In this document: piece after piece, positions 3,940 to 23,734 of the stretch
Numbering within the stretch: position 1 is the first letter of the stretch
Layout of the letters: each line of letters opens with the position of its first letter
NCBI RefSeq assembly: GCF_002261345.1
Contig: NZ_NEVT01000009.1
Coordinates: 186,001-250,000, forward strand
Direction: 5' to 3'
Source: Bordetella genomosp. 2
GTDB taxonomy: Bacteria; Pseudomonadota; Gammaproteobacteria; Burkholderiales; Burkholderiaceae_B
Length of the DNA: 64,000 nucleotides
The notes under the pieces: generated by a model
Told to the model about the DNA's origin: nothing
The model's database searches: none
The model's input: the letters and a program-made list of their open reading frames with translations, nothing else
Made by a program: the position numbers and the translations under genes

Positions 3940-5610
3940 CTACTTGAACGCCGCGGCCGGGTCGCCGCCGGCGCCGCCGTAGATGCCGCCGCCATACGAG
4001 CCCTCGATCTCGATCTTGACCGTGCTGGGATCGACGGTGGACTGGCCAGCCTTGTAGTGCATGACCAGGCCGGGGAACAGCATGACCGCGGCCACCATCA
4101 GCAGCTGGATCACGATGAACGGCACCGAGCCCCAGTAGATCTGGCCGGTGGTCACCGGCTCGATGCGCTGGCCGGTGACCTTGTCGCGGTAGGCGTCCTT
4201 GGGCGCGACCGAGCGCAGGTAGAACAGCGCGAAGCCGAACGGCGGGTGCATGAACGAGGTCTGCATGTTCACCGCCAGCAGCACCCCGAACCAGATCAGG
4301 TCGATGCCCATCTTGTCGGCCACCGGCCCCAGCAGCGGCACGATGATGAACGCCAGCTCGAAGAAGTCCAGGAAGAACGCCAGCACGAAGGTCAGCACGC
4401 TGACCACGATCAGGAACCCCCACTCCCCGCCCGGCACGCTGGTCAGCAGGTGCTCGACCCACAGGTCGCCGCTCACGCCCCGGAAGGTCAGCCCGAACAC
4501 CGTCGAGCCCACCAGGATGAACACCACGAAGCACGACAGCTTGGTGGTCGTGTCCATCGCCTGGCGCAGCAGGTCCAGCGTCAGCCGCCGGCGGATCAGC
4601 GCCATCACGATCGCGCCCACCGCCCCCATCGCCCCACCCTCGGTCGGCGTGGCGATGCCGATGAAGATCGTGCCCAGCACCAGGAAGATCAGAAACAGCG
4701 GCGGGATCATCACGAAGGTCACCCGCTCGGCCAGCGCCGACAGCATGTTCAACCGGAACAGCTTGTTGACGATGGCGATCACGAAGGCCGTCAGCCCCCA
4801 CAGCAGCAGGCTGAGCACCACCTTCTCGTCGACCGGCGCGTCGGCCTTCTCGATCCACTGCGTGATCAGGTAGGCCGACAGCGCCGAGACCAGCATCAGC
4901 ACCAGCAGCGAGCGCCCCCCGCGCGAGCCGTTCGGCTCGCGGAAGGCCCGCGCCTCCTCGGGCAGCGCCGGCGCCGACGACGGCTTGAGCACCGACATCA
5001 CCACGATGTACAGGATGTACGCCCCGGCCAGCAGGAACCCCGGCAGCATCGCCCCGCGGTACATGTCGCCGATCGAGCGGCCCAGCTGGTCGGCCAGGAT
5101 GATCAGCACCAGCGACGGCGGGATGATCTGCGACAGCGTGCCCGAGGCGGCGATCACCCCCGTGGCCAGCCGCCGGTCGTAGCCGTAGCGCAGCATGATC
5201 GGCAGCGAGATCAGCCCCATGGAGATCACCGAGGCCGACACCACCCCGGTCGTCGCCGCCAGCATCGCGCCCACCACCACCACCGCGATGGCCAGGCCCC
5301 CGCGCAGCGGCCCGAACACCTGCCCGATCGTCTCGAGCAGGTCCTCGGCCATGCCCGAGCGCTCCAGCACCAGCCCCATCAGCGTGAAGAACGGCACCGC
5401 CAGCAGCGTGTCGTTGGCCACGATCCCGAACACCCGCTGCGGCAGCGCCTGGAACAGCGAGGCGTTGAACAGCCCCAGCTCCATGCCCACCAGCCCGTAC
5501 AGGATCCCGTTGGCCGCCAGCGCGAACGCCACCGGAAAGCCCAGCAGCAGGAACACCACCAGCGTGCCGAACATGATCGGCGCCAGGTTGGCTAGAAAGA
5601 ATTCCATCAT
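3940..5610 (-). CDS. TRAP transporter large membrane subunit (DctM, FcbT3-like)
   Basis: 556 aa, an extended DctM of the mannitol/chloroaromatic TRAP subgroup rather than the usual 425-430 aa. It is almost wholly hydrophobic with many membrane helices, starting MMEFFLANLAPIMFGTLVV, and carries the family-like blocks FTLMGLVLERSGMAEDL and ASGTLSQIIPPSLVLIILADQ. It is the Na+-coupled pore of the importer. Two bases separate its ATG from the stop of dctQ. No binding-protein gene is adjacent; the only dctP-like gene is at 13469-14575, first in the same-strand gene array. Likely cargo is an aromatic carboxylate such as picolinate (inference). Confidence 0.9.
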   Translation of the reverse strand: MMEFFLANLAPIMFGTLVVFLLLGFPVAFALAANGILYGLVGMELGLFNASLFQALPQRVFGIVANDTLLAVPFFTLMGLVLERSGMAEDLLETIGQVFGPLRGGLAIAVVVVGAMLAATTGVVSASVISMGLISLPIMLRYGYDRRLATGVIAASGTLSQIIPPSLVLIILADQLGRSIGDMYRGAMLPGFLLAGAYILYIVVMSVLKPSSAPALPEEARAFREPNGSRGGRSLLVLMLVSALSAYLITQWIEKADAPVDEKVVLSLLLWGLTAFVIAIVNKLFRLNMLSALAERVTFVMIPPLFLIFLVLGTIFIGIATPTEGGAMGAVGAIVMALIRRRLTLDLLRQAMDTTTKLSCFVVFILVGSTVFGLTFRGVSGDLWVEHLLTSVPGGEWGFLIVVSVLTFVLAFFLDFFELAFIIVPLLGPVADKMGIDLIWFGVLLAVNMQTSFMHPPFGFALFYLRSVAPKDAYRDKVTGQRIEPVTTGQIYWGSVPFIVIQLLMVAAVMLFPGLVMHYKAGQSTVDPSTVKIEIEGSYGGGIYGGAGGDPAAAFK

Positions 5611-5612
5611 GA

Positions 5613-6236
5613 TCAGCGGCCCTTGTCCTGTTGTTGTTGCAGGGCCGCTTCGCGCGCCTGCGCTTCACGGGCGATCTCCTCGGCCAGTTGCTCCTCGGCG
5701 CTCTTGCCCTCGGCGCGCGCCAGCGGGTCCGGCGCCTGCCCGCGCAGGTACCCCACGCACTTGATCAGCCGCGACACGCCCGCCAGCACCAGCAGCGCGA
5801 ACCCCACCGGGATCAGCAGCTTGACCGGCCAGCGCACCAGCCCGCCCGAGTTCGACGACTGCTCGTTGGACACGTACGAGTCCATGAACATCGGCCACGA
5901 CAAGTACATGATCAGGATCGCCATGGGCAACAGGAAAAACACCACGCCGAAGATCTCGATGTAGATCTGCGTACGCTTGGACAGGCGCGAGGACAGGATG
6001 TCCACCCGCACGTGTTCGTTCTTGAGCAGGGTGTAGCCGGCCGTGAGCAGGAACATGGCACCGAACATGTACCACTGCAGTTCCAGCCACGCGTTCGAGC
6101 TCGTCTCGAACACCTTGCGGACCAGGGCGTTGCCGGCGCTCACCAGCACCACCAGCAGCGTGATCCACGTCACGGCTCGCCCCACCCGCAGGTTCAGCGC
6201 GTCTATGGCGCGCGAGATAGCGAGTAATGCTTTCAT
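5613..6236 (-). CDS. TRAP transporter small membrane subunit (DctQ, FcbT2-like)
   Basis: 207 aa from ATG 6236. There are four hydrophobic helices, with the DctQ-type core W-I-T-L-L-V-V-L-V-S near residue 20 and WLELQWYMFGAMFLLTAGYTLL around residue 50. The C-terminal 40 residues are charged and glutamine-rich, ending in QQQQDKGR. It pairs with the large subunit at 3940-5610. The frame stays open far upstream (to 7112), but that part is antisense-like and crosses a repeat hairpin. The family-1 repeat hairpin lies 55 bp upstream, between it and the ABC permease gene. Confidence 0.88.
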   Translation of the reverse strand: MKALLAISRAIDALNLRVGRAVTWITLLVVLVSAGNALVRKVFETSSNAWLELQWYMFGAMFLLTAGYTLLKNEHVRVDILSSRLSKRTQIYIEIFGVVFFLLPMAILIMYLSWPMFMDSYVSNEQSSNSGGLVRWPVKLLIPVGFALLVLAGVSRLIKCVGYLRGQAPDPLARAEGKSAEEQLAEEIAREAQAREAALQQQQDKGR

Positions 6237-6290
6237 GAAGATTCCCTTGGGGGTGTCATTGGAGGTTTTCTCGGTAGTGGTTGATGCGTT

Positions 6291-6358
6291 GGTGTCAGGC
6301 ACGCAAGGTGTCTGACGCATGCTGCAAGGGGTGTCAGACACCTTGCGTGCCTGACACC
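6291..6358. repeat. family-1 repeat: 26-bp perfect inverted repeat with GGTGTC ends
   Basis: Arms at 6291-6316 and 6333-6358 are perfectly complementary, with a 16-base loop. Both arms contain the GGTGTC/GACACC words shared by four other loci in this window. It lies between the ABC permease gene (stop at 6410) and dctQ (start at 6236), so as RNA it would form a strong 3' stem-loop behind the ABC operon. It may separate dctQM transcription from the genes upstream, or protect an mRNA end. Confidence 0.85.
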
Positions 6359-6409
6359 TGGCGGCGCATGATGGCTGACTGGCACCGCCGCCGGCGCGCC
6401 GTGCCGCCG

Positions 6410-7183
6410 TCAATGCCCGCCATCGCGGCGGCGCCAGGGCGTGGCCTTGCGCTCCAGCCAGGCCAGCAGCCCGAACAGCGCCATGCCCATCAGCGCCAGC
6501 ACGAACAGGGCGGCGAACACCCGCACGGTGTCGAAGGTGCCCTGCGCGCTCATGATGACGTAGCCCAGGCCGCGCTGCGACGAGACGAACTCGCCGACGA
6601 TGGCGCCCACCAGCGCCAGCGAGATCGCCACCTTCATGCCGGTCACGATGGAAGGCAGGGCGGCCGGCAGCCGCACCTTGAAAAAGAAATCGCGCCGCGA
6701 GCCCTTCAGCACCCGGCCCAGGTCCAGCACGTCCTGCGGCACCGACTTCAGTCCGTGCACGGTGTCCACCACGATGGCGAACACCGCGATCAGGAACGCG
6801 ATGGCGATCTTGGGCTCGGCGCCCGTGCCGAGCCAGATGACGAACAGCGGCGCCACCGCCACCTTGGGCACGCTGTTGAGCGCCACGATCAGGGGATAGC
6901 ACACACTCTCGAACCAGCGCGATCCGACCAGCAGCACGGCCGTCAGTACGCCACCCACCACCGCCGCCAGGAAGCCGCCCACGGTGGTCAGCAGGGTGTA
7001 CCAGGCATGGCCCGCGTACCAGCGCCAGTCGGTCGCCAGTTCGGCGGCGATCTGCGTCGGCAGGGGCAGCATGATGGGACGCACGTGCAGCGCGCGGGCC
7101 AGCGCCTCCCACAGCGCCAGGAACAGCAGCAGCGAAGCCAGGCCGGCGGCGCCGTGCAGCAGTTGTCGCGAAATGCCGGTCAT
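6410..7183 (-). CDS. ABC transporter permease (SsuC/TauC family)
   Basis: 257 aa inner-membrane permease with about six helices. The ATPase-coupling EAA-type loop is seen as GEFVSSQRGLGYVIMSA in the second half of the protein. This family imports sulfonates, nitrate, thiamine precursors and aromatic acids. Start ATG 7183 overlaps the ATPase stop by 4 bp (ATGA), so the pair is translationally coupled. It is the last gene of the binding protein-ATPase-permease trio that follows the molybdenum hydroxylase genes, which suggests uptake of the pathway substrate. Confidence 0.9.
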   Translation of the reverse strand: MTGISRQLLHGAAGLASLLLFLALWEALARALHVRPIMLPLPTQIAAELATDWRWYAGHAWYTLLTTVGGFLAAVVGGVLTAVLLVGSRWFESVCYPLIVALNSVPKVAVAPLFVIWLGTGAEPKIAIAFLIAVFAIVVDTVHGLKSVPQDVLDLGRVLKGSRRDFFFKVRLPAALPSIVTGMKVAISLALVGAIVGEFVSSQRGLGYVIMSAQGTFDTVRVFAALFVLALMGMALFGLLAWLERKATPWRRRDGGH

Positions 7184-7968
7184 GAGGCGCGCCCTCCTTC
7201 GTCGATCAGGCCCATCTGCTGGAACAGGCCGCGGATATGGCTTACATAGCGGCCGAATTCGGGGGTTTCGCGGATAGCCAGCGGCCGCGGCCGCGGCAGG
7301 TCGATGGCGATGGTCTCGACGACGCGGCCGGGACGCGGCGAGAACACCATGACGGTGTCGCCCAGGAAGACCGCCTCGGCGATGCCGTGCGTGACGAACA
7401 GCACGGTATTGCGGGTTTCCATCCAGATGCGCTGCAGTTCGACATTCATCTGGTCGCGCGTCAGCGCGTCCAGGGCGCCGAACGGCTCGTCCATCAGCAG
7501 CAGCCGCGGATCGTCGACCAGCGCCCGGCAGATGGCGGCGCGCTGGCGCATGCCGCCCGACAGCTCATGCGGATAGCACTCGGCGAAATCCTGCAGCCCC
7601 GTCAGCGCCAGCAAGGCGCGCACCTTGTCGGCATAGGCGCCCGCCGGCTTGTGGGCGAACTCGACCGGCAGCAGCACGTTGCGGCGGATGCTGCGCCAGT
7701 CCAGCAGCGCATCGCGCTGGAACACCATGCCGATGCCGTCGGGCGGGCCTTGCACCGGCCGGCCTTCGACCGCCAGTTCGCCCTGGCTGATGGTTTCCAG
7801 CCCGGCCACGCAGCGCAGGAAGGTGCTCTTGCCGCAGCCGCTGGGGCCCAGGATGCTGAGAAAGCGCCCGGCCGGCAGCTCCAGCGATACCGAATCGAGC
7901 GCGCGCACCCCACGCGCGCCGGGATATTGCTTGCCGACCCCGCGCGCCGCCACCGCCCATTGCGTCAT
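7180..7968 (-). CDS. ABC transporter ATP-binding protein (SsuB/TauB family)
   Basis: 262 aa from ATG 7968. Walker A GPSGCGKST is at residues 41-49, the signature reads LSGGMRQR, and Walker B plus D-loop reads LLLMDEPFGALD. The H-loop histidine follows in VLFVTHGIAEAV. The start overlaps the binding-protein stop by 4 bp. It energises the permease at 6410-7183. The frame runs open to 9099, but the upstream part is a shadow of the binding-protein gene. Confidence 0.93.
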   Translation of the reverse strand: MTQWAVAARGVGKQYPGARGVRALDSVSLELPAGRFLSILGPSGCGKSTFLRCVAGLETISQGELAVEGRPVQGPPDGIGMVFQRDALLDWRSIRRNVLLPVEFAHKPAGAYADKVRALLALTGLQDFAECYPHELSGGMRQRAAICRALVDDPRLLLMDEPFGALDALTRDQMNVELQRIWMETRNTVLFVTHGIAEAVFLGDTVMVFSPRPGRVVETIAIDLPRPRPLAIRETPEFGRYVSHIRGLFQQMGLIDEGGRAS

Positions 7969-8990
7969 GGCCGCACCATGGCGTCGTAGCGTTCCGGCTG
8001 CACCAGGCCGGGCGCGTAGAACGCCGCCGGGTCGGCATCGGCGCGCACCAGCCCCACCGAGGACAGCGTCTTGACCGCCTGCACCCAGTCCGCCGGCACC
8101 GGCGCGCCCACCCGCTGGCCGGCCGCCGGCGTGCCGAAGTAGTCGCGCAGCGCATCGATCTGGCCACGCAGTACGCGGGCATCCAGGCGCGCCTGCGGCC
8201 GCTGGGCCAGGATGGCCTGCACCGCCTCGTCCTGGTGGCCGGCATAGATGTATTCCCAGGCGCGCGCGCTGACGCTGGCGAAGCGCGCGATGGCGTCGCG
8301 CCGCTCGGCCAGCTTCTGTTCGCTGGCGAACAGGCCGAAGCTGGGCATGTCCAGGCCGAAATCGGCGAAGCGCACCGCCTTGGACGGCCGGTTCTGCGAC
8401 ACCACCGGCAAGAAGAACGGAATGGTGGAGAACGCCGCGTCGGCGCGGCCCACGGCGTAGGTCGACGCCTTGCCGGCGGCATCCACGTTGACCAGCTCCA
8501 GGTCGCCCTTGGCCAGCTTGCCGCGCGCCAGGAAGGCGTCGATGAACGGCGCCTCCAGCGATCCGGCGGTGTAGGCGACCTTCTTGCCCTTCAATTGCGC
8601 CGGGCCCTCGATGCCGGAGTCGGCCGGCACCAGCAGGCCGATGTCGCTGTGGCGCGCGAACACCGCCACCGCCTTGACCGGCAGGCCCTTGTCGCGCGCG
8701 ATCATCATGGACGCCAGCGCGGCGTGGCCCACATCGAAGCTGTCGCCGCCGCCGACGATCTGCACCGTGGTGACCGAGCCGTTGCCATCCTCCAGGGCGA
8801 CATCCAGGCCCGCCTGGCGGTACCAGCCCTTGTGCTGCGCCAGGTGGAAGGCGGCCTGCACGCCCCAGGGCGTCCAGTCGAGCCGCACCTTGAGCGGCTC
8901 CAGCGGCGGCGCCGCGAGCGCCTGGCCGCAGCACGCGACAGCCAGGGCCAGCACGAGCCGCCGCCCTATTCTTTCCATGACCGAGTGCAT
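7965..8990 (-). CDS. ABC transporter periplasmic substrate-binding protein (NMT1/SsuA-like)
   Basis: 341 aa from ATG 8990. It has a signal peptide with basic start (ERIGRR), hydrophobic core LVLALAVACC and likely AxA cleavage near residue 27. The mature start KVRLDWTPWGVQAAFHLAQHKGWY is the hallmark of the NMT1/THI5-like family. This family binds pyrimidine precursors, sulfonates and aromatic acids. It is 41 bp downstream of the fused iron-sulfur subunit gene, so probably in the same transcript as the hydroxylase. Picolinate or a related pyridine acid is the inferred ligand. Confidence 0.88.
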   Translation of the reverse strand: MHSVMERIGRRLVLALAVACCGQALAAPPLEPLKVRLDWTPWGVQAAFHLAQHKGWYRQAGLDVALEDGNGSVTTVQIVGGGDSFDVGHAALASMMIARDKGLPVKAVAVFARHSDIGLLVPADSGIEGPAQLKGKKVAYTAGSLEAPFIDAFLARGKLAKGDLELVNVDAAGKASTYAVGRADAAFSTIPFFLPVVSQNRPSKAVRFADFGLDMPSFGLFASEQKLAERRDAIARFASVSARAWEYIYAGHQDEAVQAILAQRPQARLDARVLRGQIDALRDYFGTPAAGQRVGAPVPADWVQAVKTLSSVGLVRADADPAAFYAPGLVQPERYDAMVRP

Positions 8991-9031
8991 CGTTTTTTCC
9001 CCTTGACGATTGCTCCGCGGCGCGCCGGCAG

Positions 9032-10234
9032 TCAGCCCGCGCGCCCGAACCAGCGCTTGACGCGCATCCACAGCACGCTGAAGAACATCCCCACTGCATT
9101 GAACTCGGCTTGCGCCGGCGCTTCGCCGTCGGCGCCGGCGCCCAGGCGGGCGCCGACGTTCTTGCCGAAGTCGGCGATCATGCGGCGCACGAAGTCCTGC
9201 ACCAGGCCGGAACGCGAGAACTGGGCCAGCGGCCCTTGCAGCGTGTATTGCAGGTCGACATCGACCCGGGTCTGCCCGCCCTCCAGCGCGCGCACCTGGT
9301 AGGCGATGTCGCCGGTGGCGCGCGACTGGCTCAAGGTGTCCTGGCCCGCGCCGCGCAGCACGGCGCGCCGGTTGGCGTCGTCGCGCTCGAGCCGCGCCGC
9401 GCCATTGAAGGCGGCGGCCATCGGACCGAACTTGATGGCAATGCGGCCCTTGACGCGGTCGCCGTCATGCTCCTGGATCGCGGCGCCCGGCAGACAGGCC
9501 GCCACCGCCGGCAGGTCGACCATGAAGGTCCATACCTGGTCCGCCGGGAACGGCACCTGGAAGCCGCCTTCGATATGGTTGCCCTTGCCGGCCGCGCGGG
9601 CCGGCGCCGGCTCGGCCGTGGCGGCGCGCGGCGTGGCCGGCGCGGCCGGGACCGGGTCCGCCGGGGCGAACGCCTGGAAGCCCGTCGGCGCGGGCGTGGC
9701 CGCGGCCGGGGCGGCGCCGCGCCCTTGCGCCAGTGCTTCGCGCAACGCGGTCACCGCCGCGTCGGGCTGCTCGCGCAGCTCGGCCAGCACCGACATCACG
9801 GCCGCGACGATCCCCATATAGCCAGTGCAGCGGCACAGGTTGCCGGACAGCTCCACGCGCACCCGGGCCTCGTCGGCCTCGGGCAGGCGCAGCACGATGT
9901 CGCGCGCCGTGGCCAGCATGCCGGGCGTGCAATAACCGCACTGCAGCGCATGATGGCGGGTGAAGGCCTGGCGCAGGCGGGCCATGACCGGATCGCCGTC
10001 GTAGCCCTCGATGGTGGTCACCCGGCGGCCCTCGCAGGCGGCGGCGAAGGCGATGCACGAACGCACCGGCTGTCCGTCCAGCAGCACCGTGCACGCGCCG
10101 CACACGCCGTGTTCGCAGCCCAGGTGGGTGCCGGTCAGGCGCGCCTGGTCGCGCAGAAAGTCGCCCAGGTGCATGCGCGCGGGCGCCTCGTGCGATACCC
10201 GCTTGCCGTTGATTTCCAATGAAACTTGAACCAT
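9032..10234 (-). CDS. molybdenum hydroxylase [2Fe-2S] subunit fused to a CoxG/SRPBCC domain (PicA component)
   Basis: 400 aa. Residues 1-165 are the CoxS-type electron-transfer subunit: plant-type 2Fe-2S cysteines C40, C45, C48 and C60, then the second cluster C99, C102, C134 and C136. An Ala/Pro-rich linker (about 165-210) leads to an SRPBCC domain (about 213-365) like CoxG, and a hydrophobic C-terminal patch near FFSVLWMRVKRWFGRAG. CoxS proteins are normally about 160 aa, so this is a fusion. CoxG is linked to membrane attachment of CO dehydrogenase. With the two genes upstream it should form a heterotrimer that hydroxylates a pyridine ring next to N (picolinate to 6-hydroxypicolinate, inferred). 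Confidence 0.85.
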   Translation of the reverse strand: MVQVSLEINGKRVSHEAPARMHLGDFLRDQARLTGTHLGCEHGVCGACTVLLDGQPVRSCIAFAAACEGRRVTTIEGYDGDPVMARLRQAFTRHHALQCGYCTPGMLATARDIVLRLPEADEARVRVELSGNLCRCTGYMGIVAAVMSVLAELREQPDAAVTALREALAQGRGAAPAAATPAPTGFQAFAPADPVPAAPATPRAATAEPAPARAAGKGNHIEGGFQVPFPADQVWTFMVDLPAVAACLPGAAIQEHDGDRVKGRIAIKFGPMAAAFNGAARLERDDANRRAVLRGAGQDTLSQSRATGDIAYQVRALEGGQTRVDVDLQYTLQGPLAQFSRSGLVQDFVRRMIADFGKNVGARLGAGADGEAPAQAEFNAVGMFFSVLWMRVKRWFGRAG

Positions 10235-10243: not shown

Positions 10244-11074
10244 CTATGCGGCCAGGGCCTGCCCGAGGCAGCGCGCCACGGCGGTGGCATGCAGCTTGCG
10301 ATGCAGCGGGTCTTTGTCGGGCATGACGGCGGCCAGCTCGTCCAGGATGCGGCCATTGGCGGCCGGCGCGGCGCCGGTGCGCGCCACCTCGGCGGCCAGG
10401 CCGGGCAGCAGCGCCGGCGGGCCGTCCAGGGCGCCGACCGCGACGCGGGCCACCTTGCCCGCCGGGTCGAACCAGGCCGCACAGGCGGCCTCGGCGAACT
10501 CGCCGGTCTTGCGGCAGAACTTGTAATAGCCCCAGCGCGCCTGGGCCTCCCGGCGCGGCACGTGGACCGCGACGATCAGTTCGTCCTCGCCCACCGCCGT
10601 CGTATAGGCGCCGTGCATGAAGTCACTGGCGGCGACCAGGCGCGTGCCGGCCGGCCCGGCGATCTCGATGTCGGCGCCGAGCGCCACCATGGTCAATACC
10701 CAGTCGGCCGCCGGGTCGGCATGCGCCAGACTGCCGCCCAGGGTGCCGCGATTGCGGATGGCGCGGTAGGCGATGCCGCCCGCCACCTGCTGCAGCACCG
10801 AGCCGCGCAGCGGCGGAAACACGCCATCCTCGATCTCGGCGTGGGTGACGCCGGCGCCGACCCGCAAGCGGCCGTCCTGTTCGGCAACGCCGCGCAACTC
10901 GTCCATGCCGGCGATATCCACCACCACGGCCGGCCGCGCCAGACGCAAGTTGAGCATCGGCCCCAGCGACTGGCCGCCGGCCATGAGCTTGGCGCGGCCC
11001 TCGTGCTCGCGCAGCAGGCCGAGCGCCTGCGCCACCGACGCGGCGCGCACATAATCGAAGCGGGCGGCTTTCAC
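10244..11074 (-). CDS. molybdenum hydroxylase FAD-binding medium subunit (CoxM-like, PicA component)
   Basis: 276 aa, typical of CoxM-type subunits. The N-terminal FAD motifs are present: AGGQSLGPMLNLRLARPAVVVDI near residue 32 and the AxRNRGTLGGSLAHADPAADW block near 100. It passes electrons between the 2Fe-2S centres and the quinone or respiratory acceptor. The start overlaps the large-subunit stop by 4 bp, and it ends 9 bp before the iron-sulfur subunit, as expected for a large-medium-small operon. Confidence 0.92.
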   Translation of the reverse strand: MKAARFDYVRAASVAQALGLLREHEGRAKLMAGGQSLGPMLNLRLARPAVVVDIAGMDELRGVAEQDGRLRVGAGVTHAEIEDGVFPPLRGSVLQQVAGGIAYRAIRNRGTLGGSLAHADPAADWVLTMVALGADIEIAGPAGTRLVAASDFMHGAYTTAVGEDELIVAVHVPRREAQARWGYYKFCRKTGEFAEAACAAWFDPAGKVARVAVGALDGPPALLPGLAAEVARTGAAPAANGRILDELAAVMPDKDPLHRKLHATAVARCLGQALAA

Positions 11075-13449: not shown

Positions 13450-13468
13450 CGCTATCCTCTATGTTGCG

Positions 13469-15009: not shown

Positions 15010-15043
15010 GCAGTACACTGTGCACATTTACTCAGCACACTGA
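15010..15043. promoter_or_regulatory. pair of PicR-like operator boxes before the Rieske oxygenase operon
   Basis: Boxes at 15010-15021 (GCAGTACACTGT) and 15032-15043 (TCAGCACACTGA), with centres 22 bp apart. The second ends 11 bp before the ATG at 15055, where a bound repressor would cover the transcription start or the ribosome-binding region. Confidence 0.72.
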
Positions 15044-15369: not shown

Positions 15370-15396
15370 GCCTGTCGAGGCCGCAAGGAGCCCCGC

Positions 15397-16665
15397 ATGG
15401 AACCCTTATCGTCCATTGTGATTGTCGGCGCCGGGCAGGCCGGGGCAGTGGCGGCGGCCACGCTGCGCGAGCTGGGCTACGCGGGCGCGCTCACGCTGGT
15501 GGGCCAGGAACCGCACCCGCCCTACGAGCGCCCGCCGCTGTCCAAGGCGGTGCTGCAGGACGAAGCCGCCGCCGCGGCGGCCGCCGTGCACCCCGCCGAT
15601 TTCTATAGCGCGCGCGATGTGCGGCTGGTCACCGGCGCCGCAGTGCGGACGCTGGACCGCGCGGCCCGCACGGTGGTGCTGGCCGATGGGCGCGAGCTGC
15701 GCTACGACCGCTGCCTGCTGGCCACCGGCGGCCAGGCCCGCGAGCTGCCGGGCTTGCCGCGCGGCGCGGCCGGCGTGCATTACATCCGCACCCTGGATGA
15801 CGCGGCCGCGTTGCGCCAGGCCTTGCGGCCGGGCGCCTCTGTCGTGGTGGTGGGCGGCGGCTTCCTGGGACTGGAGGTGGCTTCCACCGCGCTGGCGCTG
15901 GGGGCCCGCGTCACCGTGCTGGAAGCCGCGCCGCGCTTGCTGCCGCGCGCCCTGCCCCCGGTCTTTTCCGACTGGCTCGCCGACCGGGCGCGCCAGGCCG
16001 GCGTGGCGCTGCGGCTGGACTGCGGCCTGCGCGCGAGCGCGCCCGGCCAGCCGGCCCGCGTGCAATTGCAGGACGGCGCCGAACTGCAGGCCGACGTGCT
16101 GGTGGTGGCGGTGGGGCTGGCCCCGTCGGTGGAGCTGGCGCGCGACGCCGGCCTGGCCATCGACGCAGCCACCGGCGGCATAAGGGTGGATGCGGCCTGC
16201 CGCAGCAGCGACCCGCATATCTACGCGGCCGGCGACTGCGCCAGCCAGCAGCGCGCGCCCCAGGATGCCTGCCTGCGCCTGGAATCCTGGCAGAACGCCA
16301 ACGAGCAGGCCCGCACCGCCGCCGCCGGCCTGCTGGGCATGCCGCTGCCGGCGCCCGCATACCCGTGGTTCTGGACCGACCAGTACGGCTGCAATATCCA
16401 GATGCTGGGCCTGCCGCAGCCCGGGCTGGCCTATGTGCGCCGCGGCGCGGCCGACGCTGCGGCCGCGGCGCCGCGCTTCCTGTGGCTCGGCCTGCGCGAC
16501 GGCGTGCCAGTGCACGGCATTGCCGTCAATGCCGGCGGCGAGCTGCGGCAGCTGCGCGCGCTGTTCGAACGCGGGCTGCCGATCGACCCGCTGCTCTTCG
16601 CCGACCCGGACACGCCGCTCAAGCCACTGGTCAAGGCCTGGCAAAGCGCGGCCGCCGGCGCCTGA
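15397..16665 (+). CDS. FAD-dependent ferredoxin reductase of the oxygenase (PicB component)
   Basis: 422 aa, BphA4/HcaD-type NAD(P)H reductase. It has an N-terminal FAD Rossmann motif IVGAGQAGAVAA at residues 7-18, an NAD-binding motif VVVVGGGFLGLEVAS near residue 149, and the FAD-contact block YAAGDCASQQ near 275. It starts 27 bp after the ferredoxin stop and ends 35 bp before the oxygenase alpha gene. It supplies electrons to the Rieske ferredoxin. Four components (ferredoxin, reductase, alpha, beta) match the reported make-up of 6-hydroxypicolinate 3-monooxygenase. Confidence 0.92.
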   Translation: MEPLSSIVIVGAGQAGAVAAATLRELGYAGALTLVGQEPHPPYERPPLSKAVLQDEAAAAAAAVHPADFYSARDVRLVTGAAVRTLDRAARTVVLADGRELRYDRCLLATGGQARELPGLPRGAAGVHYIRTLDDAAALRQALRPGASVVVVGGGFLGLEVASTALALGARVTVLEAAPRLLPRALPPVFSDWLADRARQAGVALRLDCGLRASAPGQPARVQLQDGAELQADVLVVAVGLAPSVELARDAGLAIDAATGGIRVDAACRSSDPHIYAAGDCASQQRAPQDACLRLESWQNANEQARTAAAGLLGMPLPAPAYPWFWTDQYGCNIQMLGLPQPGLAYVRRGAADAAAAAPRFLWLGLRDGVPVHGIAVNAGGELRQLRALFERGLPIDPLLFADPDTPLKPLVKAWQSAAAGA

Positions 16666-16700
16666 CTGTTGTTTCTTCCCTCCGGACTGGAGCTTGTTCC

Positions 16701-18008
16701 ATGTATCAATCACAAACCGTCATCGGCCGCACCCTGGCGGCCAAGGATGCGGCGCTCGAGGACTGCATATGGCCCGAGGACGCGCTGCACGCCATTCCCG
16801 ACTGGGTCTACACCAGCGCGGCCGTGTATGAGAAAGAGATAGAGGTCATCTTCCATGGCAAGACCTGGAACTATGTGGCCCTGGAAGCCGAAGTCCCCAA
16901 CCCGGGGGACTACAAGCGCTCTTATGTCGGCCCCACGCCGGTGGTGGTGTCGCGCGCCGAGGACGGCTCGATCAACGTGTTCGAGAACCGCTGCGCCCAT
17001 CGCGGCGCGGAGTTCTGCCGGCACAGCCAGGGCAACGCGAAGGAGTTCGTGTGCCCGTATCACCAGTGGTCCTACGACCTGAAGGGCAACTTGCAGGGCA
17101 TACCCTTCAAGCGCGGCGTGAACCGCATCGGCGGCATGCCCAAGGACTTCCGCAACGAGCAGCACGGCTTGCGCAAGCTGCGCGTGACCACGCGCCACGG
17201 CGTGGTGTTCGCATCGTATTCGGAAGAGACCGAGCCGCTGGAGGAATACCTGACGCCGGAGATCCTGGCCGACTTCGACACGGTATTCCCGGGCAAGCCG
17301 CTCAAGGTGCTGGGCTACTACCGCAACGAACTGCCCTGCAACTGGAAGATGTACCACGAGAACCTCAAGGACCCCTACCACGCCACATTGCTGCATTCGT
17401 TCCTGGTGGTGTTCGGGCTGCTGGTGGCGGGCAACAAGTCGGCCATGCTGGTCGATACCGTGCACGGCCGCCACGGCACCATGGCGTCGGCCAAGAGCGA
17501 AGACAAGTACGCCAAGGTCAGCGACGAGAACAAGAAGGAAATGCGCTCGTTCCACGACGGCCTGTCGCTGCGCGATGATCGCTTCCTGGAGTTCGTCAAG
17601 GAATTCGATTCGCCCTGGTCGGTCACCATGCAGACCATCTGGCCGAACCTGATCGTGCAGCGCGAGATGAACACCCTGGGCGTGCGCCAGATCGTGCCCA
17701 ACGGACCGGACAGCATGATCATGCAGTGGACCATGTTCGGCTATGAAGACGACACACCGGAAATGCAGCGGCACCGCCTGCGCCAGGGCAACCTGATGGG
17801 ACCGGCCGGTTTCCTGGGGCTGGAAGACAACGAGGCGATGAAATTCGTGCAGGAAGGCGTGCGGCGCGCCAGCACCGGCGTCAATGTGCTGAAACTGGAG
17901 TCCGGCAAGCTGGGCACCTCGGACAGCCTGATCTCCGAGGCGGCCATCCGCTCCATGTATGCCTATTACCGCCAGGTCATGGGCATCCCCGTGGGAGGCG
18001 CGCAATGA
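16701..18008 (+). CDS. Rieske non-heme iron oxygenase alpha subunit (PicB component)
   Basis: 435 aa from ATG 16701; the frame is open from 16365 but that part overlaps the reductase. The Rieske centre is C98, H100, C118, H121. The mononuclear iron site is D224-P-Y-H227-x4-H232 within NWKMYHENLKDPYHATLLH, with a likely third ligand D376. It is the catalytic subunit of an aromatic ring oxygenase. In this context the inferred reaction is 3-hydroxylation of 6-hydroxypicolinate. A salicylate- or anthranilate-type hydroxylase is the alternative by family alone. Confidence 0.92.
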   Translation: MYQSQTVIGRTLAAKDAALEDCIWPEDALHAIPDWVYTSAAVYEKEIEVIFHGKTWNYVALEAEVPNPGDYKRSYVGPTPVVVSRAEDGSINVFENRCAHRGAEFCRHSQGNAKEFVCPYHQWSYDLKGNLQGIPFKRGVNRIGGMPKDFRNEQHGLRKLRVTTRHGVVFASYSEETEPLEEYLTPEILADFDTVFPGKPLKVLGYYRNELPCNWKMYHENLKDPYHATLLHSFLVVFGLLVAGNKSAMLVDTVHGRHGTMASAKSEDKYAKVSDENKKEMRSFHDGLSLRDDRFLEFVKEFDSPWSVTMQTIWPNLIVQREMNTLGVRQIVPNGPDSMIMQWTMFGYEDDTPEMQRHRLRQGNLMGPAGFLGLEDNEAMKFVQEGVRRASTGVNVLKLESGKLGTSDSLISEAAIRSMYAYYRQVMGIPVGGAQ

Positions 18009-18523
18009 GCATGCAACTCGCCTATGCCGAGCGCCGGATCGATCCCGCCCGCGCCATTGCGCTGAAACTGGAGATCGAGGAGTTCAACGCCGACTACTGC
18101 GCGGCACTGGATGGCGGCCAGGTCGAGCGCTGGCCCGAGTTCTTCACGCGGGACGCGCTATACCGGGTCACGGCGCGCGAGAACGCCGAGCTCGGCCTGC
18201 CGGTCGGCCTGGTGTACGCCGAGGGCCGCGACATGATGCACGACCGCGCCGTCGCCATCGCCCGCACCCAGATGTTCGCGCCGCGCCACATGCTGCACCT
18301 GTTGAGCAATACGCGCGTCACGCACGAGTCGGCCGACGGCGAGATCGCGGCGACGGCCAGCTTCCTGCTGCTGCAGACACTGGTGGAAGGCCCCACCACC
18401 CTGCACCTGGCGGGGGTGTACTACGACCGCTACGCGCGGGAAGACGGCGTGCTGAAGCTGCGCGAACGGCAGGTGGTGTATGACACCACCATCCTGGCCA
18501 ACGACCTGGTGTACCCCGTCTGA
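18005..18523 (+). CDS. Rieske oxygenase beta subunit (PicB component)
   Basis: 172 aa, NTF2-fold small subunit of ring-hydroxylating oxygenases, typical length. The start ATG overlaps the alpha-subunit stop (ATGA), ensuring equal synthesis. Recognisable features are the acidic N-terminal helix EIEEFNADYCAALDGGQVERW and the C-terminal LKLRERQVVYDTTILANDL common to this subunit. It is structural in the alpha3beta3 complex. It is last in the plus-strand operon and converges with picF across a repeat. Confidence 0.92.
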   Translation: MSMQLAYAERRIDPARAIALKLEIEEFNADYCAALDGGQVERWPEFFTRDALYRVTARENAELGLPVGLVYAEGRDMMHDRAVAIARTQMFAPRHMLHLLSNTRVTHESADGEIAATASFLLLQTLVEGPTTLHLAGVYYDRYAREDGVLKLRERQVVYDTTILANDLVYPV

Positions 18524-18662: not shown

Positions 18663-19292
18663 CTACAGCCGCTCCAGCGCGGCCAGCGCTTCATCGCGGG
18701 GCATTACGGCGGCGTACTTCTGCTCCATGTCGAACAGGCTCGCCTCGTGCGGCGCCAGGGCGCGGTCGCCCACGCAGTCGGCCACCACCAGCGGGCGAAA
18801 GCCGTGCGACATGGCGTCGACCACGCTGGCGCGCACGCAGCCGCTGGTGACGGCGCCGGCCACCGCCAGGGTCTGCACCCCGCGCTGGGCCAGCCAGGCC
18901 GCCAGGCCGGTGCCGAAGAAGGCCGACGGCACGGTCTTGCGCACCACCAGCTCGCCGGCCTGCGGCGCCAGTTCGGGCACGATGGCGCTGTTGTGCGCCG
19001 CCTCCTTCAAGGTCAGCATGCCCGGCACCTTGAGGCTGAAGATATTGTGGTCGGCGTCGTCGTCGGCATAGACGATGCGGCTGTGCGCCACTGCCCAGCC
19101 GCGTTCGCGGGCGCGCCGCAGCAGCGGCACGGTACGCTCGATGGCCTGCGGGATATTGCCGCCGCCGAACACCGCCGGGTCGGCAAAGCCGTTGACGAAA
19201 TCGACGATCAGCAGGCCCACGGGCGCCTTCAGCTCGAGGCTGGCGCCGAAACCCTGGCGGCGATAGGTGCCGACTTCCCTGTCCACGCTCAT
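18663..19292 (-). CDS. picF: maleamate amidohydrolase (isochorismatase family, PicF/NicF)
   Basis: 209 aa from ATG 19292, whose ATGA overlaps the picD stop. The isochorismatase-family catalytic triad is visible: D31 in LLIVDFVNGF, K119 in VVRKTVPSAFFGT and C152 in VTSGCVRASV. NicF/PicF hydrolyses maleamate to maleate and ammonia, releasing the pyridine nitrogen. It is last in the minus-strand run picC-G-E-D-F, so the predicted steps are all together. N-carbamoylsarcosine amidase is the nearest alternative, unlikely beside picD and picE. Confidence 0.9.
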   Translation of the reverse strand: MSVDREVGTYRRQGFGASLELKAPVGLLIVDFVNGFADPAVFGGGNIPQAIERTVPLLRRARERGWAVAHSRIVYADDDADHNIFSLKVPGMLTLKEAAHNSAIVPELAPQAGELVVRKTVPSAFFGTGLAAWLAQRGVQTLAVAGAVTSGCVRASVVDAMSHGFRPLVVADCVGDRALAPHEASLFDMEQKYAAVMPRDEALAALERL

Positions 19293-20332
19293 GCCGCTTC
19301 TCCGTCCAGGACCTTGCCGTTGGCCACCACGTCCACGCCGTCCAGCCTCACCGTGCAGCGGCGCAGCGGAATGTCGATGTGGCAGGTGGTGGTGCGCGAG
19401 CCGCCCGCCTCGTTGTTGGGGCCCAGCGAGAACAGGAAGTTGCCCTCGTAGGCGCGCGCATCCATGCCGATGGTGGCCTCGCGGTCGTACAGGCCCAGCG
19501 TGGTCCAGTGGGCGCGCGGCTGCAGGCCCCAGCCGATATGCGATATGGCATAGGCCTCCGGGTCCTTGAACGAGGCCACGTACTCGCGCAGCAGCTCGGC
19601 ATCCACGCCGCCCTCGATGCGGGTGGCATAGCCGTTTTCCACGGTCAGGCGCACCGGCTCGGCCACATAGCACTTCTGCGGCAGCAGGATGTCGCCGCGG
19701 TCCAGCACGATGGTGCCGTTGGCGCCGCCCTCGTTCGGCCAGGTCAGCACGAAGCCGCTGGGCCAGTGGTCCCAGCGGCCCGGCTCATCGACGAAACCGT
19801 ACTCGCTGATGGCCGGGAACTCGCCCAGCGGGCAGCGCAGGTCGGTGCCGGCCGCCGACACCACGGTCATCTCGCGCGCCTGCGACAGACGCGCGGCGGC
19901 GCGCTTGACGCGCGCGCGATCCGCCTCGGTGGGCACCAGCCGGGCCAGCACCTCGGGCGGCTCGACCGCCAGCAGGATCTTGGTGCCGGTCTGCAGGATC
20001 TCGTGCTGCTCGGGCGAGAACAGCAGCGTCATCAGGTCCAGCACCAGGTCGCTTTCCTTCAGCGCGGCGATGGCCGCCCGATTGCCGGTCAGCGGGGTGG
20101 TGCCCAGGTAGGCCAGCGAATCGCGGCTCAGCGCCTTTGCGCCATTGACCGGCGGCAGGTCCAGCCGGTTGACCACCGCGCCCATCGACTGGGCGGCGAT
20201 CAGGGCCGTGGACAGGTTCTGCGGGTGGGTGGCGGCGCTGGTCAGGATGGTGACCGTCTGGCCGGCCTGCAAGTTGGACAATGTCAGCACCTGCTTCCAG
20301 GCGCTGATCATTTCATGATCGCTCACGGGCAT
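19289..20332 (-). CDS. picD: 2,5-dihydroxypyridine 5,6-dioxygenase (PicD/NicX)
   Basis: 347 aa, a NicX-type enzyme of the M29 aminopeptidase-like fold. It is an unusual Fe(II) extradiol dioxygenase that opens 2,5-dihydroxypyridine to N-formylmaleamate. The metal ligands known from Pseudomonas NicX (His265, His318, Asp320 as I recall) fall at the same numbers here: H265 in AISHIGWG, then H318 and D320 in TTCHIDIPL. Thirteen bases separate it from the deformylase gene upstream. Its presence fixes 2,5-dihydroxypyridine as the pathway hub, shared by nicotinate and picolinate breakdown. Confidence 0.93.
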   Translation of the reverse strand: MPVSDHEMISAWKQVLTLSNLQAGQTVTILTSAATHPQNLSTALIAAQSMGAVVNRLDLPPVNGAKALSRDSLAYLGTTPLTGNRAAIAALKESDLVLDLMTLLFSPEQHEILQTGTKILLAVEPPEVLARLVPTEADRARVKRAAARLSQAREMTVVSAAGTDLRCPLGEFPAISEYGFVDEPGRWDHWPSGFVLTWPNEGGANGTIVLDRGDILLPQKCYVAEPVRLTVENGYATRIEGGVDAELLREYVASFKDPEAYAISHIGWGLQPRAHWTTLGLYDREATIGMDARAYEGNFLFSLGPNNEAGGSRTTTCHIDIPLRRCTVRLDGVDVVANGKVLDGEAA

Positions 20333-20345: not shown

Positions 20346-21158
20346 TCAAAGCGGGGCGCCGAGGAAGTCGCCGAAGGCGGCGTAGAAACCCGCCTCGTTG
20401 TCCCAGGGGATCATGTGGCCGGCGCCGGCCACCCGCACATGGGCCACGCCGGGCGCCAGCTGCTGGATCTCGCGCACGTCCTCGTCGCGCACCACGTCGC
20501 CGCGCTCGGCCGTCACCAGCAGGCCGGGCACGCGCAGCGCGGGCAGGTCGGCATGAATATCGTCGCGCTGGAAGCCGTCGAAGCTCGCCAGAATGGCCCG
20601 CTCGTCGCAGGTATGCAGCCACTGGGCGCGCAGCCGCAGCTGCTCTTCGGTCCAGGTCGGGCAATAGACCCGCATGTCCTCGGCGCTCATGCCGGCGCGC
20701 GCTTCGGCCATGGAGCCCACGTACCACGGCAGTTTGGCGGGGTACGGCCGGCGGCCGGGGCCCGAGACGGGCGGGTCCACCATGACCAGCCGCGCCAGGC
20801 CCGGCGGCTGGGCGCGCGCGGCGCGAATGCCGATGCGCGCGCCCATCGAATGTCCCACCAGGCTGTAGCGCGCCAGGCCCAGCGCCTGGGCGAAGGCGAC
20901 GACATCGGCGGCCTGCGCGTCCAGGCTGTAGTCCAGGCTGTCCGAAGCCTCCGACAAGCCGCGGCCGCGCACATCCAGAACGTAGGTATCGAACACGGCG
21001 CCGAAGCGCTCGCCGACGAACCCCCAGGTCACCGCCGGGCTGGTGATGCCCGGCACGATGATCACCGGGTCCGCGCCCTCGCGCGCGCCGCCGTAGCGCA
21101 GGTAGTGCTGGCGGATGCCGTTGGCGCGCACGTGGGCGCCATAGAGATAGGTGCTCAT
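20346..21158 (-). CDS. picE: N-formylmaleamate deformylase (alpha/beta hydrolase, PicE/NicD)
   Basis: 270 aa alpha/beta-hydrolase. The nucleophile elbow GHSMG places the serine at S104. D128 (in MVDPPVSGP) and H248 (in GAGHMIPWDN) complete the triad, with the same spacing as the Pseudomonas NicD triad. It removes formate from N-formylmaleamate to give maleamate. It lies between picG and picD in the minus-strand pathway run, with short gaps (25 and 13 bp). Confidence 0.9.
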   Translation of the reverse strand: MSTYLYGAHVRANGIRQHYLRYGGAREGADPVIIVPGITSPAVTWGFVGERFGAVFDTYVLDVRGRGLSEASDSLDYSLDAQAADVVAFAQALGLARYSLVGHSMGARIGIRAARAQPPGLARLVMVDPPVSGPGRRPYPAKLPWYVGSMAEARAGMSAEDMRVYCPTWTEEQLRLRAQWLHTCDERAILASFDGFQRDDIHADLPALRVPGLLVTAERGDVVRDEDVREIQQLAPGVAHVRVAGAGHMIPWDNEAGFYAAFGDFLGAPL

Positions 21159-21183: not shown

Positions 21184-21936
21184 TCAGTACGCGCCCGACA
21201 GCAGCGCGCCGGCGCCGGGCACCACCGGCTCCAGGTCCAGCGCCTTGAGCATGGCGTAGGTCGTGGCCACCGCGGCGGTGACCACCGGCTTGCCGGTCAG
21301 CGCCTCGACCTTGGCGATGGCCGGCAGCGACGGCATCTGCACGCAGGCCGACAACACGATCGCATCGACCCCGCGCGTGTCCATCTGCGCCACGATCCCG
21401 GGCAGGCGCGCCGGATCGTGCCGCCCCACCTCCAGGTTGTCGGGGATCTCCAGCGCGCGGTAGTCGGCCACCTCGTAGCCTTCGTTGCGGATGTAGTCCA
21501 CCACCAGCTCGGTCAGCGGCTTCATATAGGGCGCCACCACGGCGATGCGCCGCGCGCCGATGACTTGCAGCCCGTTGACCAGCGCGCCGGCGCTGGTGAT
21601 CACCGGCGCGTCGGCGCCGTTGGCGGCGGTATGCGCCTGCAGCCGCTGTTCCGAGACCCGGTGGTAACCGTGCCCCATCGCCATGATGGCCACCAGGCAG
21701 GCATAGCCCAGCACGTCGACCCGCGCGTCGCTCAGCTCCACCGCGCAGCGGTCGGATTCGGCGTCCATGGCGGCCAGTTCCTCCTTGACCACCTTCTTCA
21801 TGCGCATGCGGCTGGAATGAAAAGTGAAGCGCTCCGGCCGGATCTGCTGGCGCGCCATCAGCATGGCCGGAATCTCGGTTTCCATCGTGGTGTTGGAACT
21901 CGGCACGATCTGGCCGATGCGGTAGGTCTTCTGCAT
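21184..21936 (-). CDS. picG: maleate cis-trans isomerase (PicG/NicE)
   Basis: 250 aa of the Asp/Glu racemase superfamily. The two catalytic cysteines expected in maleate isomerases appear as C80 (LGYACLVAIM) and C198 (LSACVQMPSL), with the N-terminal phosphate/carboxylate loop VPSSNTTMETE at residues 11-21. It converts maleate to fumarate, which enters the TCA cycle. It starts 25 bp after the picC stop. In the reported Alcaligenes cluster picG is, as I recall, not in the main string, so having it inside the run is a local difference. Confidence 0.92.
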   Translation of the reverse strand: MQKTYRIGQIVPSSNTTMETEIPAMLMARQQIRPERFTFHSSRMRMKKVVKEELAAMDAESDRCAVELSDARVDVLGYACLVAIMAMGHGYHRVSEQRLQAHTAANGADAPVITSAGALVNGLQVIGARRIAVVAPYMKPLTELVVDYIRNEGYEVADYRALEIPDNLEVGRHDPARLPGIVAQMDTRGVDAIVLSACVQMPSLPAIAKVEALTGKPVVTAAVATTYAMLKALDLEPVVPGAGALLSGAY

Positions 21937-21961
21937 GTCGTCCTCCGTGGGCGTCGGATGG

Positions 21962-22924
21962 TCAGAGTTTGAACAGGCGCTGGGCGTTGCCGCGACAGAC
22001 CAGCTCGCGGGTGGCTTCGTCCAGCGGCGCGGTCTCGATGAATTCCACCGCCAGCTCGGTGGACTCGTACGGATAATCGATGGAGAACATCACCGCTTCG
22101 GCGCCCATCTCGGCAATGGCGCCCACCAGCGTGGCGTGCGAACACACGCCGGAAGTGGTGATCAGGACGTTGGCGCCGATGTACTCGGATGGCTTGCGCT
22201 GCAGCTTGACGCCGTAGGGATAGGCGGCGAAGCGGCTGTCGAACCGCCAGCGCTGGAACGGCAGGCCCTCGCCCATGTGCCCCAGGATGAGCTTCACCCC
22301 GGGATAGCGGTCGAACACGCCGCCGAAGATCAGGCGCAGCGTGTGGGTGGCGGTCTCGACCCCCCAGCCCCAGGTGGCGCCGGCCAGTTCCGGGTGCCCG
22401 CGGTAGGCGTGCGGCTCGACATACGCGTAGAACGGATGCAGGTACAGGGGCACGTCGAGGTCCTGCAGGCGTTGCCAGAATACGTCGTAGGCAGGGTCGT
22501 CGTAGTACACGCCGTTGGTGTGGCCGTTGACCAGCGCGCCCTTGAAGCCCAGCTCGGTGACGGCGCGCTCCAGTTCGGCGGCGGCGGTGGCCGGGTCATG
22601 CATGGGCAGCGTGGCAAACGCGCCGTAGCGATCGGGGCGCTGCGCGACCTGCCCGGCCAGGAAATCGTTGTTCTCGCGCGCCCGCTTGAGGGCGATGGCG
22701 GGGTCGCGCTCGCCCTGCACGCCGGGGCCGGTCTGCGACAAGATGACATAGTCGATCCCGGCGCGGTCCATCAGGTCCAGCCGGTCCTGGCCGAAATCCG
22801 TCAGCCGGGCGCCCAGCTCGGCCGCGGTGGCCGGGTCCAGGTGCTGGACGAAGGCCCGTGAATAGTCCCCGAATCCGACCGCCGTGTAGTGCTCCTCGAA
22901 GGCAATCTTGCGCACTCTCGTCAT
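21962..22924 (-). CDS. picC: 3,6-dihydroxypicolinate decarboxylase (amidohydrolase-2 family, PicC)
   Basis: 320 aa ACMSD/gamma-resorcylate decarboxylase-type amidohydrolase. The N-terminal metal motif is the decarboxylase form E-E-H (residues 10-12). Other candidate ligands are H163 (YLHPFY), H216 (LGHMGEG) and D283 (SIDYPYES). These non-oxidative decarboxylases act on hydroxylated aromatic acids. Here the inferred step is 3,6-dihydroxypicolinate to 2,5-dihydroxypyridine. It is first in the minus-strand picC-G-E-D-F run, with three PicR-like boxes 56-165 bp upstream. This gene is what separates a picolinate pathway from a nicotinate one. Confidence 0.85.
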   Translation of the reverse strand: MTRVRKIAFEEHYTAVGFGDYSRAFVQHLDPATAAELGARLTDFGQDRLDLMDRAGIDYVILSQTGPGVQGERDPAIALKRARENNDFLAGQVAQRPDRYGAFATLPMHDPATAAAELERAVTELGFKGALVNGHTNGVYYDDPAYDVFWQRLQDLDVPLYLHPFYAYVEPHAYRGHPELAGATWGWGVETATHTLRLIFGGVFDRYPGVKLILGHMGEGLPFQRWRFDSRFAAYPYGVKLQRKPSEYIGANVLITTSGVCSHATLVGAIAEMGAEAVMFSIDYPYESTELAVEFIETAPLDEATRELVCRGNAQRLFKL

Positions 22925-22979
22925 TCCTCTACTCCCCTGGGGATGCGGCCGTCGTTGCCGTGGCCATCCGGTCAGTTAA

Positions 22980-22991
22980 TCAGCATACTGA
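22980..22991. promoter_or_regulatory. PicR-like operator box upstream of picC
   Basis: TCAGCATACTGA, 55 bp before the picC start, placed where a sigma-70 promoter or start site would be. It is identical to two other boxes in the locus (14784 and 23078). Confidence 0.72.
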
Positions 22992-23057
22992 ATATATGCG
23001 ACGGTTGCCGCCGCCACCATCGTGCCGCCGCCACGCCGGCAGCGGCCTCGATTTATT

Positions 23058-23089
23058 TCAGTATACTGATTTTATACTCAGCATACTGA
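23058..23089. promoter_or_regulatory. pair of PicR-like operator boxes in the picR-picC gap
   Basis: TCAGTATACTGA (23058-23069) is a perfect palindrome, and TCAGCATACTGA lies at 23078-23089. Centres are 20 bp apart, the same spacing as the pair at 14764-14795. The stretch around them is strongly A/T-rich and contains TATACT and TATAAA-like hexamers on the minus strand, consistent with a picC promoter overlapped by repressor sites. Confidence 0.75.
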
Positions 23090-23200
23090 CAAATAAAAGG
23101 GATTTTTGGGGATCGTGCACAGGGTTATCCCGCCCCTCTCCCCGGGTCCAGGGAAGGGGCCTGGACGAAAACCGCCGGCGGGAAAAGACGCGGGACGGCC

Positions 23201-23734
23201 TCAGAAGGTCTTGAGGGCCGTCCGGCTGTACTGGTTATTGGCCTCGACCAGCGTCGACAGCAGCTTCATGAAGATCTCGCGGTTGCGCGGCGTCAGCGGC
23301 TCGAGCAGGCGCTGCTGGGCGCGCGCCATGCCGCCCTGCAGCAGGCCCATGATGCGCAGGCCTTCCTGGGTGATCACCGCCTGCCGCGACCGCTTGTCGT
23401 TGGGATTGACGCGGCGCTCGACCAGGCCGCGCTCCTGCAGGCGCTTGATCACGTCCGCCGTGGTGGTGCGGTCCAGGCCGAGCTCCATGCCGATGGCGGT
23501 CTGGTCCAGCCAGGGGCTGAGCGACAGCGCGGTCAGCACCCCGTACTGCACCGGGGTGACGTTCTGGGTCTTGCACTCTTCGTAGAACAGCGCGTAGTGG
23601 ATCTGGTTGAGCCGGCGCACCAGGTAGCCGGGGCGCGACCAGAGCACCTGCTTGGCCGGGTCGAAGACCGTGCTTTCGGAAGGCCGGGAAGCGCCGCGCG
23701 CCTTTTTGCTTGCCTGGTTGTCTCGTTCCGGCAT
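23201..23734 (-). CDS. picR: MarR-family repressor of the picolinate locus (PicR)
   Basis: 177 aa. The winged helix-turn-helix spans about residues 60-125 (TPVQYGVLTALSLSPWLDQT then LGLDRTTTADVIKRLQERGLVERR), with the MarR wing NPNDKRSRQAVI. The N-terminal helix LNQIHYALFYEEC is also seen in the NicR/BpsR group that responds to hydroxylated pyridine acids. It lies 276 bp upstream of picC on the same strand, with three boxes between and one box before its own start, predicting self-regulation. The expected inducer is a pathway intermediate such as 6-hydroxypicolinate (inference). Confidence 0.87.
   Translation of the reverse strand: MPERDNQASKKARGASRPSESTVFDPAKQVLWSRPGYLVRRLNQIHYALFYEECKTQNVTPVQYGVLTALSLSPWLDQTAIGMELGLDRTTTADVIKRLQERGLVERRVNPNDKRSRQAVITQEGLRIMGLLQGGMARAQQRLLEPLTPRNREIFMKLLSTLVEANNQYSRTALKTF

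Follow-up and report, generated by a model that had tools for sequence, protein, structure and literature searches.

The degradation of picolinate by the products of pic genes has been described for Alcaligenes faecalis JQ135 (Qiu et al. 2019) and Bordetella bronchiseptica RB50, and in the latter the decarboxylase PicC converts 3,6-dihydroxypicolinate, its variants H163A and H216A being inactive (PMC10142695). According to the same source, pic clusters occur in B. ansorpii, B. bronchialis, B. bronchiseptica, B. flabilis, B. parapertussis, B. pertussis, B. petrii, B. pseudohinzii and unclassified strains, and the use of host picolinate by bacteria is raised in its discussion as an open question (PMC10142695). 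Here we analysed a stretch of 64,000 nucleotides of Bordetella genomosp. 2 (hereafter the window), corresponding to positions 186001-250000 of contig C3 in a genome of 5.02 Mb and 9 contigs (G000). Judging from its sequence, the region 3940-23734 of the window is very probably a complete locus for picolinate import and degradation, of the Bordetella type.

This region encodes all the components of the pic pathway as published, namely the PicA trio, the four-part PicB, PicC, PicG, PicE, PicD, PicF and the regulator PicR, together with two importers, a split tripartite ATP-independent periplasmic (TRAP) transporter and a nested NMT1-type ATP-binding cassette (ABC) transporter. All the named parts are intact open reading frames with fitting Pfam families, the exception being PicD, which had no Pfam match and was assigned by a gap-free alignment of its residues 1-343 with the solved 2,5-dihydroxypyridine dioxygenase 7cn3. 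The component list and the active sites given in a preliminary description of the window were thus borne out, as were the presence of a MarR regulator and the attachment of two candidate importers. That description had also divided the genes into two divergent blocks; divergent genes are indeed present, with the correction that only the four picB genes lie on the plus strand and all the other genes of the cluster on the minus strand. Precisely, the minus strand reads picR (from 23734)-picC-picG-picE-picD-picF (to 18663) and then dctP (from 14575)-picA1-picA2-picA3-abcS-abcA-abcP-dctQ-dctM (to 3940), and the plus-strand run ferredoxin-reductase-alpha-beta (15055-18523) sits between the two. The picA genes are hence flanked by both parts of the TRAP transporter, and the ABC genes occupy the interval from picA3 to dctQ. 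For JQ135, the last operon reportedly reads picT1A1A2A3T2T3MN.

From homology and from the published work on JQ135 and RB50 we infer the following reactions. Picolinate would be taken up by the TRAP importer DctPQM, possibly with a contribution from the ABC importer, and would be hydroxylated at C6 by PicA and then at C3 by the four-component PicB. PicC would decarboxylate the product to 2,5-dihydroxypyridine, PicD would open the ring, and PicE, PicF and PicG together would yield formate, ammonia and fumarate. PicR would repress the pic promoters at palindromes of the form TCAGYAYACTGA until released by a pathway intermediate, both binding and ligand being part of the prediction.

The putative picolinate 6-hydroxylase PicA is encoded on the minus strand by a molybdenum subunit (11071-13449; PF20256, E 2e-77, and PF02738, E 2.8e-63), a flavin adenine dinucleotide (FAD) subunit (10244-11074; PF00941, E 2.7e-46) and a [2Fe-2S] subunit (9032-10234; PF01799, E 2.9e-24), the last of which carries a fused CoxG-like domain (PF06240 COXG, E 6.1e-17). 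On the plus strand, PicB comprises a Rieske ferredoxin (15055-15369; PF00355, E 2.4e-20, with the motif C-X-H...C-X2-H), a ferredoxin reductase (15397-16665; PF07992, E 1.1e-67, and PF14759), an oxygenase alpha subunit (16701-18008; PF00355 and PF00848, with a Rieske motif at C98 and D224-x2-H-x4-H) and a beta subunit (18005-18523; PF13577 and PF00866). The remaining enzymes are all on the minus strand. The predicted 3,6-dihydroxypicolinate decarboxylase PicC (21962-22924; PF04909) holds E10, H12, H163, H216 and D283, and H163 and H216 are invariant in all 10 aligned PicC sequences, to three of which, from same-genus relatives (G001, G004 and G005), it is 91-93% identical, and to the six others 69-75%. 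The NicX-like 2,5-dihydroxypyridine dioxygenase PicD (19289-20332) matches 7cn3 with E 2.7e-123 and has H265, H318 and D320, and the NicD-like N-formylmaleamate deformylase PicE (20346-21158; PF00561) has GHSMG at 102. For the NicF-like maleamate amidohydrolase PicF (18663-19292) the part 18663-19286 matches 3ot4/3uao with E 2.5e-103, an ATG lies two codons further up, and D29, K117 and C150 are present, numbered from the frame start at 19286. The NicE-like maleate isomerase PicG (21184-21936) matches 4fq7 with E 2.4e-114 and has C80 and C198. The roles of the residues in PicD, PicF and PicG are taken to be those of their counterparts in NicX, NicF and maleate isomerase.

We compared the locus with 80 named loci, obtained by a profile scan with the 10 aligned PicC sequences and drawn from at least 570 candidate stretches encoding a relative, and with nine genomes of the genus, the window's own included. 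Since no named locus extends more than 10 kb from picC in either direction, the absence of a gene is weak evidence. A gene was considered as matched at E 1e-10 over half of the query length. With this threshold PicF was held by 72 loci, the alpha subunit and PicD by 70 each, PicE by 69, PicR and PicA1 by 63 each, PicG by 54 and DctP by 21; requiring at least 55% identity, the counts stayed at 70 for alpha, 54 for PicG and 21 for DctP, and were 66 for PicE. Both the Rieske alpha subunit and PicD were matched in 64 of the 80 loci, which had been found by PicC alone, and the gene set therefore recurs beyond chance. Moreover, the same set recurs in many gene orders, which supports a single pathway. 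Among the loci 20,000 bases or longer, the alpha subunit was not found within the examined stretch in three (L060, L086 and L099). Within the genus, PicC is 93% identical in Bordetella sp. BOR01 (L035) and 74% identical in B. ansorpii (L060) and B. genomosp. 13 (L045). Relatives of PicC at E 1e-60 or better, candidates for PicC, were also seen on 96 plasmid records, of which 66 are from Rhizobium; identity is below 60% in 85 of the 96 and 60-80% in the remaining 11.

The predicted regulator PicR (23201-23734, minus strand; PF12802, E 3.3e-13) has five other matches in the genome, 26-29% identical to it, and is matched distantly (E about 4e-7) by the MarR entries 6pco/6pcp, which we take to be BpsR. 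Its gene adjoins picC here and in G004; in G001 the two are about 3.5 kb apart, separated by an enolase-superfamily gene, a gene for a TctC-type binding protein and one for a LysR regulator, and in Achromobacter pestifer the gap holds an XdhC-type gene, likely encoding a maturation factor of PicA. Predicted PicR boxes identical to TCAGYAYACTGA lie in the divergent region between dctP and the ferredoxin gene (14784-14795) and just before the ferredoxin start codon (15032-15043). By pattern search, three more were predicted before picC, at 22980-22991, at 23058-23069, where the perfect palindrome TCAGTATACTGA occurs, and at 23078-23089, and a weak PicR-like box with one mismatch before picR (23756-23767). 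With at most one mismatch allowed, the window contained 13 matches to TCAGYAYACTGA, where 0.39 would be expected, and these fall at 9 places; seven of the places are in pic intergenic regions and two (4392 and 17881) inside dctM and the alpha gene, respectively. In the whole genome exact TCAGYAYACTGA occurs at 5 places, all of them pic promoters, and its reversed control at none. Five genomes have a close picC, and in these the exact places number 5 in G000, 5 in G004, 6 in G001, 3 in G002 and 7 in G005. A looser palindrome, TCAGYRYRCTGA, was dropped in favour of TCAGYAYACTGA as too common in a G+C-rich genus, with 15 places in the own genome and up to 18 in the others (control at most 4).

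In the 80 named loci the pattern TCAG-N4-CTGA occurred 189 times, in 60 loci, versus 6-25 occurrences for five control patterns. It was found within 250 bases before picC in 40 loci, including the named Bordetella loci L035, L045 and L060, and within 300 bases before the ferredoxin gene in 41 of 65. In equal stretches inside genes the corresponding counts were 0/80, 0/80, 0/70, 1/70 and 0/63, and two rearranged patterns were found before picC in 3/80 and 1/80 loci.

Several observations weigh against the locus being a complete one under a dedicated, pic-specific operator. Of the four genomes of the genus that lack a close picC, two also contain exact TCAGYAYACTGA (2 places in G003 and 1 in G008; none in the other two), and in G005 two places (contig C11) and in G001 one (C223) lie on contigs in which no pic gene was seen. 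In the other 40 of the 80 loci, among them Variovorax, Advenella, Ramlibacter and Bradyrhizobium, TCAG-N4-CTGA is absent from the 250 bases before picC, and the operator is hence not universal. Some of the loci match weakly, since at least 55% identity was reached by 37 of the 63 PicR, 65 of the 70 PicD, 64 of the 72 PicF and 58 of the 63 PicA1 matches. Finally, an XdhC-type gene lies beside picC in Achromobacter (L038) and not here, the two XdhC matches of the genome being on contig C5. These two (G000:C5:369266-369691 and 374103-374528) have equal scores and are 4.8 kb apart, which suggests a local duplication of a maturation gene for molybdenum hydroxylases.

The loci without the box, and the fact that PicR binding is predicted here from sequence, would also suit palindromes that belong to a regulator other than PicR. 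We consider this very unlikely, given that each of the 5 exact copies in the genome is located in a pic promoter. The PicR footprint of JQ135, in a 2022 paper reportedly TCAG-N4-CTNN with 6-hydroxypicolinate as the ligand, also speaks against another regulator. Since the palindrome fits that footprint, TCAGYAYACTGA as an operator is probably not new, and we claim no priority for it.

Both importers lie on the minus strand. The TRAP transporter consists of the binding protein DctP (13469-14575; PF03480 over 13469-14746) and of the membrane subunits DctQ, the small one (5613-6239; PF04290, E 5.7e-22), and DctM, the large one (3940-5610; PF06808, E 7.7e-94). DctP aligns with 4yic_A (E 7.7e-239) ungapped over 368 residues with 28 differences, i.e. 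92% identity, and 4yzz_A scores almost the same, the annotation naming a TRAP transporter solute binding protein; neither entry is mentioned in the literature that was searched. 4yic is probably BB0280 of RB50 with bound picolinic acid, and the tag BB0280 fits, being BB0271 (picC) plus nine genes in the gene order seen here. The ABC importer consists of an NMT1/THI5-like binding protein, AbcS (7965-8990; PF09084, E 5.4e-35 over 7965-9071), an ATPase, AbcA (7180-7968; PF00005, E 7.5e-30; start ATG), and a permease, AbcP (6410-7183; PF00528, E 7.7e-28), the permease gene being at the same place in L128, L130 and L133. The nearest solved relative of AbcS is the formyl-aminopyrimidine binding protein 3ix1 (E 5.4e-14), which makes a heterocycle plausible as the substrate.

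The ABC set directly follows picA3 also in L128 (G005), L130 (G004) and L133 (G013, of another genus); in L132 (G002) picA3 is followed by dctQ instead, and the stretch of L131 (G001) ends too early to tell. Among the 80 named loci, eight hold a binding protein more than 50% identical to AbcS. Its gene comes next after picA3 in 2 of the 25 loci in which picA3 is followed by 2.5 kb or more of sequence, both from Bordetella (L045 and L060), and lies elsewhere in the locus in the other six (L056, L065, L096, L097, L103 and L107). Among the listed titles of papers on picolinate with ABC and TRAP importers, none names such an importer, and in the available literature on pic we found no description of the ABC importer, the least described part of the locus. 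It is possible, and we propose it tentatively, that the nested ABC set provides a second, dedicated route for the uptake of picolinate or a pyridine acid, controlled by PicR beside the TRAP transporter; if so, a single operon would encode both ATP-driven and ion-driven uptake of the same substrate.

In L130:10505-18000 (G004), the match to dctQ covers 45% and no match to dctM was found in the 7.5 kb beyond abcP, hence in this relative the TRAP membrane part may have been lost or moved while the ABC importer was kept. As transport parts may thus be lost in the genus, the cluster of genomosp. 2 could be intact yet silent, or decayed in the species, with no growth on picolinate; this is very unlikely, because the frames are open, with the expected active-site residues, and the promoter palindromes are present.

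As regards the substrate, the preliminary description would have been contradicted if protein searches had put the oxygenase and the decarboxylase nearer to enzymes that act on some other aromatic acid. Within the reach of the tools this was not found, and the proposed pathway is supported. PicC is 58-93% identical to its counterparts across the 80 named loci, and the alpha subunit 65-94% in 70 of them. The solved enzymes for other substrates are much more distant: the nearest to PicC is gamma-resorcylate decarboxylase (3s4t/4qro), with 266 bits versus 675-691 for same-genus PicC, and the nearest to the alpha subunit is salicylate 5-hydroxylase (7c8z). In NCBIfam no model reached its cut-off for the alpha subunit (AndAc was best, with 442 bits versus a cut-off of 750) and none matched PicC. 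By sequence comparison, neither enzyme fits another substrate better, and the chemistries of both nearest solved relatives would suit the pic pathway, one being a decarboxylation ortho to a hydroxyl and the other a hydroxylation para to a hydroxyl, as from 6-hydroxy- to 3,6-dihydroxypicolinate. That the locus acts on a related pyridine or aromatic acid (a substituted picolinate, a hydroxybenzoate), with picolinate a poor substrate, is therefore highly improbable in spite of the gamma-resorcylate, salicylate and (below cut-off) anthranilate dioxygenase relatives, as the ring-opening set matches 2,5-dihydroxypyridine dioxygenase and maleate isomerase and not benzene-ring enzymes, PicC is so close to that of its same-genus relatives, and RB50 PicC is inactive on gentisate and 2,3-dihydroxybenzoate (PMC10142695).

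On one side the locus is adjoined by a gene for a glutamate-cysteine ligase family protein (Pfam), and on the other by genes that, from their translations, we take to be trkG, trkA, ntrX and ntrY. Scans of the window with Rfam and for tRNA gave no match. Further along, 47838-56321 holds an ABC importer set of the branched-chain amino acid type with AMP-binding enzymes on its flanks, and 59170-61467 a phosphoesterase family protein with the C-terminal domain of bacterial phospholipase C. In a Pfam scan of ten open reading frames of the right half of the window, 8 of the 10 had no match; a second choice of frames by codon G+C did better. Elsewhere in the genome, L134:3397-18167 (in G000:C7:416001-436000) contains a second molybdenum hydroxylase trio (10577-14394) near an amidohydrolase (8319-9353) 33% identical to PicC, with a glyoxalase-fold protein, an aldehyde dehydrogenase and an enolase-superfamily gene, and may represent a further pathway for an aromatic compound or a heterocycle.

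The steps that lead from 2,5-dihydroxypyridine to fumarate, the lower pathway, are shared with the nic (nicotinate) cluster of B. bronchiseptica and Pseudomonas putida (PMC10142695), which differs in its upper pathway and in its regulator, BpsR, released by 6-hydroxynicotinate (PMC6837509). The present locus is not such a cluster, since the only close copy of PicD in the genome adjoins PicA, PicB and PicC (NicC was not searched for). With JQ135 it shares the pathway and the component list; in JQ135, however, picG lies away from the cluster (PMC10142695). The likeness to RB50 goes further: the components are the same, picG is between picC and picE in both, picB is divergent from picT, and PicC (BB0271 in RB50) has 320 residues with H163 and H216 (PMC10142695). 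RB50 differs in having two unknown genes between picR and picC, where there are none here, and a second, identical picGEDF copy in its nic cluster (PMC10142695); in genomosp. 2 PicD is without a close second copy, the sole other match in the genome covering part of the protein at 34% identity. The published oligonucleotide for the start of RB50 picC mismatches the window at 3 of 23 bases, which shows that the DNA is not that of RB50. The picolinate pathway, whose PicC is enzymatically proven in B. bronchiseptica, thus has its full gene complement in a further member of the genus, and the locus offers a short predicted operator that lends itself to testing and a nested ABC importer with a measurable substrate. 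It is a further example of the published cluster, in a genus already reported to carry pic, and not a new pathway, and what it adds to the described systems is only a tidy operator and the ABC importer.

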